The translations under genes and the position numbers were made by a program. From Thermogemmatispora tikiterensis (GTDB lineage: Bacteria; Chloroflexota; Ktedonobacteria; Ktedonobacterales; Ktedonobacteraceae): a stretch of 64,000 nucleotides of DNA. The notes beneath the pieces are model-generated. The model searched no databases and was not told the origin of the DNA. It was given only the letters and a program-made list of their open reading frames with translations. Shown piece by piece: positions 1 through 5,796 of the stretch. Position 1 is the first letter of the stretch; each line of letters starts with the position of its first letter. The stretch spans positions 4,228,151 to 4,292,150 of the forward strand of contig NZ_MCIF01000002.1 of NCBI RefSeq assembly GCF_003268475.1, read 5' to 3'.

Positions 1-808
1 CGCTCCCAAGCCAGTCGTACTTGCCCTGGATCATGTTGGTGATGGCGGTGGTGTTGTCTCTGGCGGAGTAGACGAGGATATGTTTGACGGCGGGCTGGCT
101 GCCCCAGTAGGAGGGGTTGGCGTCGTAGATGATCAGGTCGGGAGAGAAGCTGCGCAGCTTGTAGGGGCCAGTGCCGACAGGGTTCTTGTCGTTGGTGAAC
201 TTGGCGGGATCGCTGCTAATGCTGGACCAGACGTGCTGAGGGACGATGTAGGTCTGGCCGATATAGAAGAGAGCGGTGCTGTTGGGGCCGGTCAAGGTGA
301 AGGTCACCGTCTGACTGTCAGGGACGGTGATATTTTTGATGAGAGCTATGACTCCTCCCTGGTCGAGGGCCGGGTGGGCTTTCATGAGATCGAAGGTGAA
401 CTTGACATCGGCGCTGGTGAAGGGCTGGCCGTCGTTCCACTTGACGTTAGGGCGCAGGTGGAAGGTCAACTGGCTACTGTCGCTGGAAAACTCATAGCTG
501 GTCGCCAACCAGGGATGGTAGAGACCCGTGGAGAAGTCCGTGGAGTAGAGCACCTCGTAGAGCAGGCCCTGCGCACCCCAGGCAGCGGGAGTATTGTAGT
601 TGAAGAATGGGTTGAAAAGGTCAGCATTGGGGCCGTTAGGCGCCGGCAAGACCCTGAGCGTATCTGTCTGGGAGGCCGCAGGTTGGGTTGACCCCCCGCA
701 GGCAGCCAGGAAGAGTGCACCCAGGAGCAGCAGTAGTAACATGGCTGGTGCCCCCAGCGCGCCCCGACGCGGGCCTGCTGAGAGCAGCGGCAGATGCCTT
801 GCGTGCAT
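1..808 (-). CDS. Extracellular solute-binding lipoprotein, family 5 (partial, C-terminus beyond window)
   Basis: This is the N-terminal part (about 269 residues) of an ABC-transporter substrate-binding protein of the oligopeptide/cello-oligosaccharide family (SBP_bac_5). It reads leftward and runs off the left edge. The ATG at 808 follows AAGGAGG at 6-7 nt. A second in-frame ATG lies 22 codons later, just before the hydrophobic stretch. The signal peptide ends in a lipobox (LFLAACGG), so the mature protein should be a membrane-anchored lipoprotein. The family pattern is clear: an early LYEVLY segment, then HLRPNVKWNDGQPFTSADV, a hallmark of the family, and later GTGPYKL. The gene diverges from a cellulase and both promoters carry the same operator, so cellobiose or cello-oligosaccharides are the likely ligand. 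That specificity is inferred from context only; peptides remain possible. Confidence 0.88.
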   Translation of the reverse strand, partial: MHARHLPLLSAGPRRGALGAPAMLLLLLLGALFLAACGGSTQPAASQTDTLRVLPAPNGPNADLFNPFFNYNTPAAWGAQGLLYEVLYSTDFSTGLYHPWLATSYEFSSDSSQLTFHLRPNVKWNDGQPFTSADVKFTFDLMKAHPALDQGGVIALIKNITVPDSQTVTFTLTGPNSTALFYIGQTYIVPQHVWSSISSDPAKFTNDKNPVGTGPYKLRSFSPDLIIYDANPSYWGSQPAVKHILVYSARDNTTAITNMIQGKYDWLGS

Positions 809-1070: not shown

Positions 1071-1106
1071 GTAAACGTTGTCGTTATCGATACCGTTAAC
1101 GATTAC
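1071..1106 (-). promoter_or_regulatory. LacI-type operator, copy 1
   Basis: On the minus strand this 36-bp stretch matches the copy at 1501-1536 (plus strand) at 30 of 36 positions. It begins 4 bp after the -10 box of the promoter for the solute-binding protein gene, a position where a repressor would block transcription. CGTTAAC, CGATAAC and CGTTTAC units recur every 12 bp. The look is that of LacI-family operators. No LacI-family gene is visible in the window. Confidence 0.7.
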
Positions 1107-1110
1107 ATAA

Positions 1111-1139
1111 ATTATAATAGTGAGCGCTTTCTCTGTCAA
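1111..1139 (-). promoter_or_regulatory. Sigma-70-type promoter for the solute-binding protein gene
   Basis: Reading leftward, a perfect TTGACA (-35, 1134-1139) and a perfect TATAAT (-10, 1111-1116) are separated by 17 bp. The start codon at 808 lies about 300 bp downstream, so the leader is long. The operator at 1071-1106 covers the expected start of transcription. Confidence 0.75.
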
Positions 1140-1463
1140 TTATCTGCTTTAGCAGCAAAGCTCTTCAATAATGGATAGATACTCATCAGTAGTAGAGGTA
1201 AATTAAAGGATATATAGCATCAAAAATCTATTGAGTCATAAAGTATAGGTAATCCCTTTAATCGCGGAAGGTAGCAGGCGATTCCGGCTCGAGGTAAGGG
1301 TAACAGTGCATTTTGCCCGAGGGGGCAGGCTGGTAACCGTTGCCAGCTTGCCCCCATTTTTTCCTATCCAGCCGGGAAAACTGTTGGCTTGTTGGTGCCC
1401 ACCGGTGCCCGTTAGCAGCTGGTTCGTCCGGGGGTTGCCCCGGGTCAAGAAGGTAGGCGGCGC

Positions 1464-1493
1464 TTGACAAAGGCCAGAACTGGCAGGTATAGT
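1464..1493 (+). promoter_or_regulatory. Sigma-70-type promoter for the GH5-CBM2 cellulase gene
   Basis: TTGACA (1464-1469) and TATAGT (1488-1493) are separated by 18 bp and point to the cellulase gene at 1676. The operator at 1501-1536 begins 7 bp after the -10 box and so overlaps the predicted transcription start. Confidence 0.7.
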
Positions 1494-1500
1494 TACTTTC

Positions 1501-1536
1501 GTAAACGTTTACGGTATCGTTTACGATACCGTTTAC
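1501..1536 (+). promoter_or_regulatory. LacI-type operator, copy 2
   Basis: Three exact CGTTTAC units start at 1506, 1518 and 1530 (12-bp period), preceded by the inverted unit GTAAACG at 1501. It contains a perfect 12-bp palindrome (1501-1512) and a 9-bp inverted repeat with a 4-bp spacer (1511-1519 and 1524-1532). It matches copy 1 at 30 of 36 positions on the opposite strand. The placement suggests repression of the cellulase gene, released by a sugar inducer. Confidence 0.75.
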
Positions 1537-1675: not shown

Positions 1676-3274
1676 ATGGTCACACCATCCGCGTATCGTT
1701 GGCCTCGACTGAGGTACGCGGCGCTCTCTCTCCTGCTTGTTCTGGCGTCCTTCTCTCTAGCCACCTATCTAGGCGTCAGATCGCAGGCTTTACGTGCCCA
1801 TGCAGCGCCTTCCGTCACTGGCCTGCACGTTTCTGGGAACCAGCTACTCAACGGGCAGAACCAGGTAGTGCGTGCGCTGGGAGTTGACCGCTCTGGGGCG
1901 GAGTACATGTGTCGTAGCAGCACTGCCACCACTGTCTTTGACGGGCCGGTCGACACCAACGCCATCAACGCTATGCTGAGCTGGGACATCACCGCCGTGC
2001 GCATTCCCCTGAATGAGGACTGCTGGCTTGGCATTAACGGTTATCCCGCTGCTCAGTACTCTGCTGCGACCTATCAGCAGCAAGTCATCAATTTTGTCAA
2101 TGCATTGACAACTGATAATCTCATCGTCATTCTCGACCTGCACTGGAATGCGCCGGGTACCCAGCAGGCCAACGGGCAGCAGCCGATGCCCGACCTCGAT
2201 CATGCGCCGGCCTTCTGGACCTCCGTAGCCAACACCTTCAAGAACAACAGTTCAGTTATCTTCGATCTCTACAACGAGCCATACACCAGCAGCTGGGCCT
2301 GCTGGCGTGACGGCAGCACGGCGGCCAATGCCAGCCCCTGTAGCGATGTTGGTTTCGCCGTAGCCGGCATGCAGACGCTTGTCAATACGGTGCGAGCCAC
2401 GGGCGCCACCAATGTAATTATGCTGGGAGGTCTGGCTTACGCCAACGATCTCTCGCAATGGCTGCAGTACAAGCCGACCGATCCTCTCAATAACCTGGTG
2501 GCCTCTTTCCATCTCTACAACTTCAATGCCTGCAGCAGCACGAGCTGCTGGAACTCTCAGGTGGCTCCAGTAGCGGCTCAGGTGCCGGTGATCGCCGGTG
2601 AGATCGGCGAGAACGACTGTGCTCACGGGTTCATTGACACCGCTATGGCCTGGTTCGATCAGCACGGTATCAGCTATCTTGGCTGGGCCTGGGACACCTA
2701 TGACTGCAGCTCCTTCCCAGCGCTCATTAGCAATTACAATGGCACGCCCACGGCCTATGGGCAGGGCCTGCATGATCACCTCATTGCTCTGGCCAGCAGC
2801 GGTGGTGGCAGCACGCCGACGCCGTCGCCGACCCCATCCCCCACGCCGACCACGGCGCCATCGCCGACCCCAACTCCTACACCGCGACCGACAGTGACGC
2901 CGACGGCTACCCCATCGCCGACGCCGTCGCCCACGCCAGGTGCGGGCGCCTCGTGTCAGGTGCACTATAGCGTGGTGAGTCAATGGCCGGGCGGCTTCCA
3001 GGCTAGCATCAGCATCACCAACACGGGCAGCAGTCCCATCAACGGCTGGACCTTGAGCTTCAGCTTCACAGCTGGTCAGCAGATCACTCAGCTCTGGAAC
3101 GGGAGCTATACGCAGCAAGGGGCCCAGGTGACGGTCACCAACGCCTCCTACAATGCTCAGATCCCGGCGGGCGGCACACTTAGCTCACCGCCAGGTTTCC
3201 TGGCCAGCTGGAATGGCAGCAATCCTGCCCCGACAAGTTTCACCCTTAATGGCGTCAGCTGCAGCGTCATCTGA
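1676..3274 (+). CDS. Secreted endoglucanase, GH5 catalytic domain plus CBM2
   Basis: This is a 532-residue secreted beta-1,4-glucanase predicted to cut cellulose. A signal peptide/membrane segment (about residues 13-35) leads to a GH5 barrel (about 45-375). The acid/base is Glu201 in the YNEP motif and the nucleophile is Glu309 in VIAGEIGE; LDLHWN near 153 is also typical. A long Thr/Pro/Ser linker (about 379-424) joins it to a C-terminal CBM2 (about 427-532), which carries paired Cys, conserved Trp residues and the GWTLSFSF segment. The ATG at 1676 is preceded by a G-rich Shine-Dalgarno (AAAGGGGGGG). The promoter and operator upstream suggest sugar-controlled expression shared with the divergent binding-protein gene. 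A second GH5 enzyme with a different binding module lies just downstream. The family call is firm; the exact substrate (cellulose or mixed-linked glucan) is inferred. Confidence 0.93.
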   Translation: MVTPSAYRWPRLRYAALSLLLVLASFSLATYLGVRSQALRAHAAPSVTGLHVSGNQLLNGQNQVVRALGVDRSGAEYMCRSSTATTVFDGPVDTNAINAMLSWDITAVRIPLNEDCWLGINGYPAAQYSAATYQQQVINFVNALTTDNLIVILDLHWNAPGTQQANGQQPMPDLDHAPAFWTSVANTFKNNSSVIFDLYNEPYTSSWACWRDGSTAANASPCSDVGFAVAGMQTLVNTVRATGATNVIMLGGLAYANDLSQWLQYKPTDPLNNLVASFHLYNFNACSSTSCWNSQVAPVAAQVPVIAGEIGENDCAHGFIDTAMAWFDQHGISYLGWAWDTYDCSSFPALISNYNGTPTAYGQGLHDHLIALASSGGGSTPTPSPTPSPTPTTAPSPTPTPTPRPTVTPTATPSPTPSPTPGAGASCQVHYSVVSQWPGGFQASISITNTGSSPINGWTLSFSFTAGQQITQLWNGSYTQQGAQVTVTNASYNAQIPAGGTLSSPPGFLASWNGSNPAPTSFTLNGVSCSVI

Positions 3275-3600: not shown

Positions 3601-5796
3601 ATGAAGCCATCCTTCTTCTCGCGCTCGCGTCTGCGACCATGGCAGGGACGCTGGATGTTCAGAGCGCTACTGATTGGCGTGTTATTGCTCTGCTCGGCGG
3701 GGTTGGCGCTGGGCACGGCTCGCAGCAGCCATGCGCAGTCGGTGCCCGCCGGGCTGGTCCTCGAATATGCCGATGCTAATACCAGCGCCACGACCAATAC
3801 GCCTCGTCCCCACTTTGAGATCGTGAACAACACCAGCTCCAGTGTCGCCCTCAGCAGCCTGACGATCCGCTATTGGTATACCGAGGATGGTAGCCAGTCG
3901 CAGCAGTTCTGGTGTGACTATGCGGCGGTTGGTTGCAGCAATCTTTCCGGCTCATTTGTCCAGATGAGTGCCCCAACGGCGACCGCTGACACCTATCTTC
4001 AGATCAGCTTCAGTAGTGCAGCGGGGAGCATTGGGCCTGGTGGCAATAGTGGCGAGATCCAGGTGCGCTTCAATAAGAGCGATTGGAGCAACTATAACCA
4101 GACCAACGATTATTCATGGAGTGCGACGCAGACGAGCTATGCCCCGTGGAGCCAGGTGACGCTCTATCTCAACGGGCAGCTGGTCTGGGGGACCGAGCCA
4201 GGCGGGGCCAGTCCGACGCCGACGCCGACGCCCTCGCCTACTCCGACGAGCGTGCCGACGCTGACTCCCACGCCTGGCGTGGGTGGAGGTAGCACAAGTG
4301 GTGGCTGGACGACCAGCGGCACGAAGATTCTGGCTCCCAATGGCAGTCAATTCGTGATCAGCGGCATCAACTGGTACGGCTTCGAGACTCCCGACTATGT
4401 GGCGCACGGTCTCTGGTCGTACGATATCTCGACGATTCTCAACCTGGTCAAGAGCTATGGCTACAATACGCTGCGCATCCCCTTCTCTAATCAGATGTGG
4501 GAGTCCGACCCGGTGCCGCAGAATGACGTTGGCTGTCCCTCGTGTGTGGGGCTGCATGCGCGTGATATCCTGGCCAAGATCATCAATTACGCTGGCTCGA
4601 TTGGCCTGCATGTGATCCTGGATGACCACCGCTCGGAGGCAGGCGAGTCCGCCGAGCAGAGCGGACTGTGGTATACCTCGGCCTATCCCGAGAGCAGTTG
4701 GATCAACGACTGGGTGAGTGTGCAGCGCTGGGTGCATGGTATTCCCCAGACCTTGGGGGCGACCGATACGGTAACGGTGAACTACCTGGCCTCTGATGGC
4801 TGGCCGATCGTCTTGGGCTATGATCTGCGCAATGAGCCGCATGTAGAGGGGACCTATCCCAACCAATACGCCAGCGGGGCTCAGTGGGGTTCGGGCGATG
4901 GTATTGATCCGGCGACCAACCCGAATCCGAATCCGTTTGCCCCGGCCTGTGTGGCAACCTCGTCCTGCCACGATTGGCGCCTGGCAGCAGAGCGCGCAGC
5001 TGATACGCTGCTTGGCGATGCTCAGGCGCACGGTTGGAGCTATCCCTTGATCTTTGTCGAAGGGGTCTCGGCCTATCCGACAGCCTCTGGCACGCAGGCC
5101 AACGGTCCCTACTCCAGCACCTGGTGGGGCGGCAGCCTGCAGGGCGTCAATGGCAATAGTAACAACGCGGGGGCGCCGATCGTGCTCAACGCCGGCGGCA
5201 ATGCCAGCAGCCTGGGTCCGGCGGTCAATAATCAGGTGGTCTACTCAGCGCATGAGTATGGTCCGACGCTCTATCCGCAGAGCTGGTTCAATAGTAGCAC
5301 CTGTTATAAGAGTGGCTGCTCTGGCTCCAGCCTGGTGGATGTCTGGACGAGCAACTGGGCCTACATTGCAACGCCAAACGGCATCAATCCAACCTGGCCA
5401 GGCCATAGCAGCTATCCCTGGAGTAATACCGGGGCTCAGCCTTATAGCTCGGCTCCGGTCTGGATCGGCGAGTTTGGCACCGGCAATAGCGCCAGTGATC
5501 TGGTCTCCAGCGGCGCCGGCTCGCAAGGCCAGTGGTTCACGGACCTGGTCAACTTTATCAAGAGCAGTTATGGCGGCGGAGGCTCAGGTGTGGCCGTGAG
5601 TAATCTGAACTGGACCTACTGGGCGCTGAATGGTGAGGATAGCTATGGCCTGCTCAATGGCCAGTACAATGGTCTGGCCAATCCAACCAAGGAATATAGC
5701 TTCCTCTGCTTTATCGAGACCGGCCCGCTGGCGGTGCCTGCTGGGAGCGGCAGCGGTCAGTGTGGCTCGACGGGTCCGTTGCCAGCGCCGCAGTGA
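3601..5796 (+). CDS. Secreted cellulase, N-terminal CBM3 plus GH5 catalytic domain
   Basis: This is a 731-residue secreted cellulase. The ATG at 3601 is preferred to an in-frame TTG at 3595 because AAGGAGG ends 8 nt before it. A signal peptide (about residues 19-46, ending SSHAQS) is followed by a CBM3 cellulose-binding module (about 48-200; LVLEYADAN, PHFEIVNN and QVRFNKSDWSNY are typical), a short Pro/Thr linker (about 204-226) and a GH5 domain of the type found in Acidothermus E1 endoglucanase (about 235-715). The acid/base is Glu412 in DLRNEPH and the nucleophile is Glu624 in VWIGEFGTGN. The order of modules is reversed relative to the upstream enzyme and the binding modules differ, so the two probably bind different parts of cellulose. 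A terminator-like hairpin follows at 5918. Confidence 0.93.
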   Translation: MKPSFFSRSRLRPWQGRWMFRALLIGVLLLCSAGLALGTARSSHAQSVPAGLVLEYADANTSATTNTPRPHFEIVNNTSSSVALSSLTIRYWYTEDGSQSQQFWCDYAAVGCSNLSGSFVQMSAPTATADTYLQISFSSAAGSIGPGGNSGEIQVRFNKSDWSNYNQTNDYSWSATQTSYAPWSQVTLYLNGQLVWGTEPGGASPTPTPTPSPTPTSVPTLTPTPGVGGGSTSGGWTTSGTKILAPNGSQFVISGINWYGFETPDYVAHGLWSYDISTILNLVKSYGYNTLRIPFSNQMWESDPVPQNDVGCPSCVGLHARDILAKIINYAGSIGLHVILDDHRSEAGESAEQSGLWYTSAYPESSWINDWVSVQRWVHGIPQTLGATDTVTVNYLASDGWPIVLGYDLRNEPHVEGTYPNQYASGAQWGSGDGIDPATNPNPNPFAPACVATSSCHDWRLAAERAADTLLGDAQAHGWSYPLIFVEGVSAYPTASGTQANGPYSSTWWGGSLQGVNGNSNNAGAPIVLNAGGNASSLGPAVNNQVVYSAHEYGPTLYPQSWFNSSTCYKSGCSGSSLVDVWTSNWAYIATPNGINPTWPGHSSYPWSNTGAQPYSSAPVWIGEFGTGNSASDLVSSGAGSQGQWFTDLVNFIKSSYGGGGSGVAVSNLNWTYWALNGEDSYGLLNGQYNGLANPTKEYSFLCFIETGPLAVPAGSGSGQCGSTGPLPAPQ

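Follow-up and report, generated by a model that had tools for sequence, protein, structure and literature searches.

The divergent intergenic region between a cellulase gene and a solute-binding protein (SBP) gene of Thermogemmatispora tikiterensis carries two 36-bp arrays, A and B, which are probably operators of a LacI-family repressor controlling a cellulose-use regulon, the most likely repressor being the product of a neighboring gene, L060. The region is located in the window, the whole stretch of 64,000 nucleotides that was analyzed (contig C2, positions 4228151-4292150, of genome G000); coordinates given without a contig or locus name are those of the window. Array A (1501 to 1536, plus strand), a putative LacI operator for the GH5 cellulase gene, is composed of three abutting 12-bp CG-centered dyads, in order GTAAACGTTTAC GGTATCGTTTAC GATACCGTTTAC, with dyad centers at 1506/1507, 1518/1519, and 1530/1531. 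Array B (1071 to 1106, minus strand), the corresponding candidate for the SBP gene, also contains three abutting 12-bp dyads, which read GTAATCGTTAAC GGTATCGATAAC GACAACGTTTAC from position 1106 to position 1071 of the minus strand. The consensus of the units across arrays is GTWANC|GNTWAC, every unit being centered on CG; the strongest units have 5 to 6 symmetrical pairs out of 6, and the others have 3 to 4. Recounting gave the same agreement between the two elements, which lie on opposite strands, as an earlier note on this DNA (30 of 36 bases), and CGTTTAC was found every 12 bp, at 1506, 1518, and 1530, as claimed there. The note had counted three or four half-sites, but each 36-mer consists of three complete dyads and hence six half-sites. 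Its view that a 12-bp period is unlike a palindromic LacI operator did not hold either, since the 12-mer is the CG-centered core of such an operator, tiled without gaps, and LacI tiling at 12 to 14 bp is known.

Both arrays are located immediately downstream from sigma-70-like promoters. The promoter of the GH5 gene (1464 to 1493, plus strand; TTGACA-18-TATAGT) matches the consensus at 11 of 12 positions, and that of the SBP gene (1111 to 1139, minus strand; TTGACA-17-TATAAT) matches it at all 12. Array A begins 7 bp past its -10 box and array B 4 bp past its own, in line with the 4 to 7 bp from near-consensus -10 boxes reported previously. The gene downstream from array A (1676 to 3274, plus strand) encodes a secreted GH5 endoglucanase of 532 residues with a C-terminal CBM2 (PF00150, 5e-32; PF00553, 1e-32). 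The gene downstream from array B (1 to 808, minus strand) encodes a family 5 SBP of ABC uptake (PF00496, 8e-44) and continues past the left end of the window. A second GH5 cellulase gene, with CBM3 (3601 to 5796, plus strand), follows the GH5-CBM2 gene; it has no array of its own and is possibly cotranscribed. Searching the window for a 20-bp core with up to 3 mismatches afforded 4 matches, versus 0 in 100 shuffles. Midway between the two divergent genes, there is also a strong terminator-like hairpin (1321 to 1362, plus strand; 16 pairs followed by ATTTTTT), similar in G001 and G005 and not in G002 or G003, which may be the end of a small unannotated transcript.

The proposal that one motif is common to an uptake gene and a cellulase gene was extended by a motif search of the genome, which located it also at two GH6 genes, a GH48 gene, and a GH74 gene. 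A degenerate 24-mer gave 10 strand matches genome-wide with at most 1 mismatch, versus 0 for the reversed control, and 5 to 9 matches in each of five congeners, all controls being at zero. At up to 3 mismatches, the reversed control already had 4 matches, and matches of this quality therefore need other support. All seven array loci detected with at most 2 mismatches occupy regulon-type positions, bearing out the expectation that the motif does not fall at random genes. These loci are those of the GH5-CBM2 gene, the SBP gene, LacI gene L060 (C2:4226706-4226753), two GH6 genes (C2:946065 and C2:5810183), a GH74-CBM2 gene (C2:1758534), and, at C2:1252966, a site flanked by LacI paralog L066 and a decayed glycosidase-like open reading frame (ORF). 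Allowing 3 mismatches added a GH48-CBM2 gene (C2:1749200) and LacI paralog L062. The GH74 assignment comes from reading of the sequence, for which Pfam returned CBM2 and BNR/sortilin-type propeller repeats and no GH74 model. Arrays were absent from a GH9 gene and from eight other CBM2 loci of the genome, and the idea that every CBM2 gene bears an array was rejected, since only 3 of 13 do so. Likewise, the search for an intact gene under the array at C2:1252966 yielded just ORF fragments resembling a glycosidase. These minus-strand fragments (L076:8268-9466), whose start resembles a signal peptide and which include a stretch similar to glycosidases (YDIKFWEIGNEASGNG), are apparently a decayed gene behind that array; at the matching site, G004 has only a short gap. 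The literature searched on Ktedonobacteria or Thermogemmatispora and cellulase regulation contained nothing relevant.

The motif was also present at orthologous cellulase loci in congeners, as the earlier note had anticipated. Array A is identical at 36 of 36 positions in four congeners, in which the DNA upstream of it (1260 to 1460) is just 36 to 88% identical, and 36 to 39 of the 40 bases of the GH5 promoter are kept. Array B has diverged, with 28 to 29 of 36 bases conserved in G002 and G003, and none of the 8 columns varying through these substitutions corresponds to unit position 1, 4, 6, 7, 9, or 12. In G005, array B has lost ~15 bp, leaving ~1.5 units.

The arrays track a single clade of LacI proteins. 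Relatives of L060 were present in 40 of the 47 genomes searched, and most of them are preceded by 2 to 4 tiled units located ~5 bp after TTGACA/TATACT (median distance from the -10 box to the array start, 5 bp for 21 promoters). A tree built from 36 LacI proteins confined the array trait to one branch (support, 100/100), in which it was displayed by 17 of the 23 members across genera of the order; the nonmembers were 13 LacI genes of this genome, none of which has an array. Counting CG-dyad spacings without assuming a period in 21 nonredundant upstream regions of the clade revealed 27 pairs, at 6, 12, 18, 24, and 30 bp only, the 6-bp spacings arising because half-sites alternate without a gap. 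In the redundant set of upstream regions, all 17 pairs were at multiples of 6, versus 0.47 pairs of any spacing expected from shuffles, and the spacing was 12 bp in all three-unit arrays. For the genome under study, whose spacing statistics were drawn from pattern searches and individually retrieved loci, the 15 other LacI genes displayed no 12-bp pair, their spacings being 16 and 30 to 44 bp. In other genera, the neighbors of the arrays are LacI and SBP genes and, once, a GH1 gene. In a different Chloroflexota genus, loci L010 to L013 (G137, G077, G116, and G085) have a 12-bp array, GTTATCGATCCC GTTATCGATCCC GTTATCGATAAC, upstream of an SBP-like gene.

For the repressor, which the earlier note had left unseen, L060 is a strong candidate, as this array-bearing LacI gene adjoins the SBP gene of the window. 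Operators of this family are typically linked to a LacI-family gene, in many cases an autoregulated one. L060 (C2:4225507-4226622, minus strand) is located ~1.5 kb to the left of the window, the minus-strand gene order being SBP (in the window), L060, SBP, permease, permease, and GH1 β-glucosidase. Its promoter (TTGACA-17-TACAAT) is followed, after 4 bp, by the array GTAATCGTTTAC GGTATCGATCTC GTGAACGGTTAC. Among solved structures, the best match of the protein was CcpA (PDB 1zvv and 1rzr; E = 3e-54). In the LacI family, a hinge leucine usually intercalates at the operator center, and L060 retains this residue (SGLAGGR). The polypeptide ends ~20 residues past the core, and no LacI-like heptad or tetramerization tail was seen by eye. 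We take L060 to be a dimer because the leucine is present and the tail was not seen. Two paralogs, L062 (C2:3464145) and L066 (C2:1253280), belong with L060 to the array clade, the three being 63 to 64% identical. L066 is preceded by two ~13-bp repeats, GTAAGCAGGTAAC and CGAAGCAGGTCACC, which follow the -10 box and are not 12-bp dyads.

In the mechanism that we propose, a homodimer of L060 would read one 12-bp dyad. Three gapless dyads would extend from approximately the transcription start to ~+36, and a dimer bound in any register would block RNA polymerase and initiation because the arrays span roughly positions +1 to +36. Because neighboring registers share bases, we tentatively take the usual load to be one dimer on the middle unit or a dimer on each outer unit, at a distance of 24 bp. 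This arrangement would raise occupancy and sharpen the switch. The repressor would be released by a cello-oligosaccharide that the regulon itself imports. Uptake and hydrolysis would be repressed together by L060, possibly shared with L062 or L066; as judged from sequence, the original idea that one repressor jointly regulates both functions appears to be largely right.

That the repressor acting on the cellulases is L060, and not L062 or L066, is likely but less than certain. A paralog could be the main cellulase repressor, with L060 controlling the uptake cluster only. L062 has the same recognition-helix sequence as L060 (SKATVSRVLN) and a three-unit array, GTAACCGGTTAC GATACCGGTATC GTAACCGGTAAC, directly after its promoter, but its neighbors are unrelated genes, whereas L060 lies inside the cellulose locus, its promoter bearing the same array. 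Also in favor of a paralog, neither L060 nor either SBP gene was found in the G001 and G004 drafts, which still have GH5 or GH6/GH74 arrays. However, this absence looks like a contig gap: the GH1 gene is present near contig edges and both SBP genes are missing too, for which reason a true loss of L060 was not accepted and an assembly gap is considered likely. Control of the cellulases by a paralog is thus unlikely, although it has an appreciable chance of being correct. Use of the arrays by a regulator of another family, or by an activator, is very improbable, since central-CG dyads are a signature of the LacI family (Ravcheev et al. 2014, PMC4052901), the arrays follow a single LacI clade, and their position after the -10 box fits repression and not activation. 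We give even less credit to the arrays being RNA hairpins that act in 5' leaders through stability or attenuation and not DNA operators. Array A folds at a z score of -4.0 and three other arrays at -3.2 to -4.4, but for the three remaining arrays of the seven (B, GH6a, and GH74), folding was no stronger than in shuffles (z = -1.6, -1.1, and 0.0, respectively). What is conserved is the 12-bp register with the central CG, not stems, and Rfam provided no convincing match; an RNA leader structure was rejected on the basis of the folding and Rfam results.

Tight packing of LacI sites is already known, and the variant is the extended, exact 12-bp array. In a previous analysis, LacI-site spacing peaked at 13, 22, and 32 bp, and overlapping sites ~13 bp apart were reported in 110 operons without a structural explanation (Ravcheev et al. 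2014, PMC4052901). We scanned the genomes of ~85,000 species (bacteria and archaea, related species included) for two GTAANCGNTTAC dyads 12 to 24 bp apart. The scan afforded at least 36 pairs at 12 bp, at least 14 at 13 bp, and at least 13 at 14 bp; at least 15 in total at 15 to 20 bp; and at least 36 at 21 to 22 bp, at least 3 at 23 bp, and at least 7 at 24 bp. Among the matches listed, the spacing peaks at 12 to 14 and 21 to 22 bp, with a trough at 15 to 20 bp. The 12-bp pairs among these matches originate from Bacillota, Actinomycetota, Pseudomonadota, and Chloroflexota, and 15 of the 36 have a LacI-type helix-turn-helix (HTH) within 2.5 kb. A near-constant 24-bp palindrome, GTAATCGGTTACGTAACCGATTAC, is present at L147, L158, L179, L224, L231, L243, and L254, several of these records being from Mesorhizobium, and these loci have no LacI-type HTH within 2.5 kb. 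In a methanogen metagenome-assembled genome, at least 4 tandem 14-bp copies of CTGTAAACGCTTAC are located at a contig edge (L149:7929-8000).

Regarding the occupancy of the arrays, we tentatively favor overlapping registers, in which no more than every other unit is occupied. A weaker middle unit was considered as a sign of alternate occupancy and dismissed, since the trend is slight (9.1, 8.6, and 8.8 matches of 10 for the successive units) and biased by the choice of array ends by match. Filling might instead be complete, three LacI dimers sitting side by side, each kinking and undertwisting the DNA at the central CpG, so that 12 bp would make approximately one turn and a short continuous filament would form. 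To our knowledge, a filament-like binding mode is not known for the LacI family. The exact 12-bp tiling in the clade and the hinge leucine of L060 are compatible with complete filling, as is the combination, among the matches listed, of a 12-to-14-bp peak with a 15-to-20-bp trough, which is unexpected from simple site redundancy. However, among the matches listed, one and the same LacI subtype can have a spacing of either 12 or 13 bp, indicating that the phasing is not strict. Likewise, although a particular mode of binding that partly unwinds the DNA has been raised for close LacI sites, contact zones would overlap at such distances in solved complexes (Ravcheev et al. 2014, PMC4052901). Complete filling is therefore improbable in our estimation; if true, it would account for tightly spaced LacI sites across bacteria.

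The arrays resemble the previously described class of LacI sites overlapping at ~13 bp (Ravcheev et al. 2014, PMC4052901; E. coli GntR at gntKU) in that they consist of central-CG even dyads at 12 to 14 bp, have contact zones that would overlap, and are kept within orthologous groups. Unlike that class, they are spaced by exactly 12 bp, commonly comprise three (up to four) units, start at a fixed ~5 bp after the -10 box, and occur clade-wide in one order, in a cellulase regulon. As in the actinobacterial CelR/CebR regulons (LacI family), a candidate LacI repressor lies beside genes predicted to mediate cello-oligosaccharide uptake and β-glucosidase activity, and sites are found at scattered cellulase genes, this likeness being one of gene content only. 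The CelR/CebR operator is a 14-bp box, TGGGAGCGCTCCCA, which is not the motif of the arrays, their consensus being GTWANC|GNTWAC instead. A sequence resembling the actinobacterial box, GTGGGAGCGATCCCAC, is located upstream of LacI gene L068 (C2:4837616), and GGTATCGCTCCCGGGAGCGATACC is found in the interval separating the GH74 gene from its array (L008:7729-7752); a second cellulose regulator in addition to the array-clade LacI is possible. In GalR-type operators, GTGTAANCGNTTACAC, each site is one dyad whose outer bases are its own. Like the arrays, these operators have GTAANC as the inner half-site flanking a central CG, whereas the outer bases of an array unit belong to the neighboring unit. 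CcpA combines a LacI HTH with a periplasmic-binding-protein fold, as does L060, but CcpA is a global regulator needing HPr, whereas L060 belongs to a local gene cluster and has an array of its own.

Together, these results outline, for one group of cellulolytic bacteria, a regulon of cellulase genes and its candidate repressor. The use by LacI proteins of sites closer than their own footprint was not reconciled with known structures by Ravcheev et al. (2014, PMC4052901), and the natural two-, three-, and four-unit arrays offer clean material on this question.
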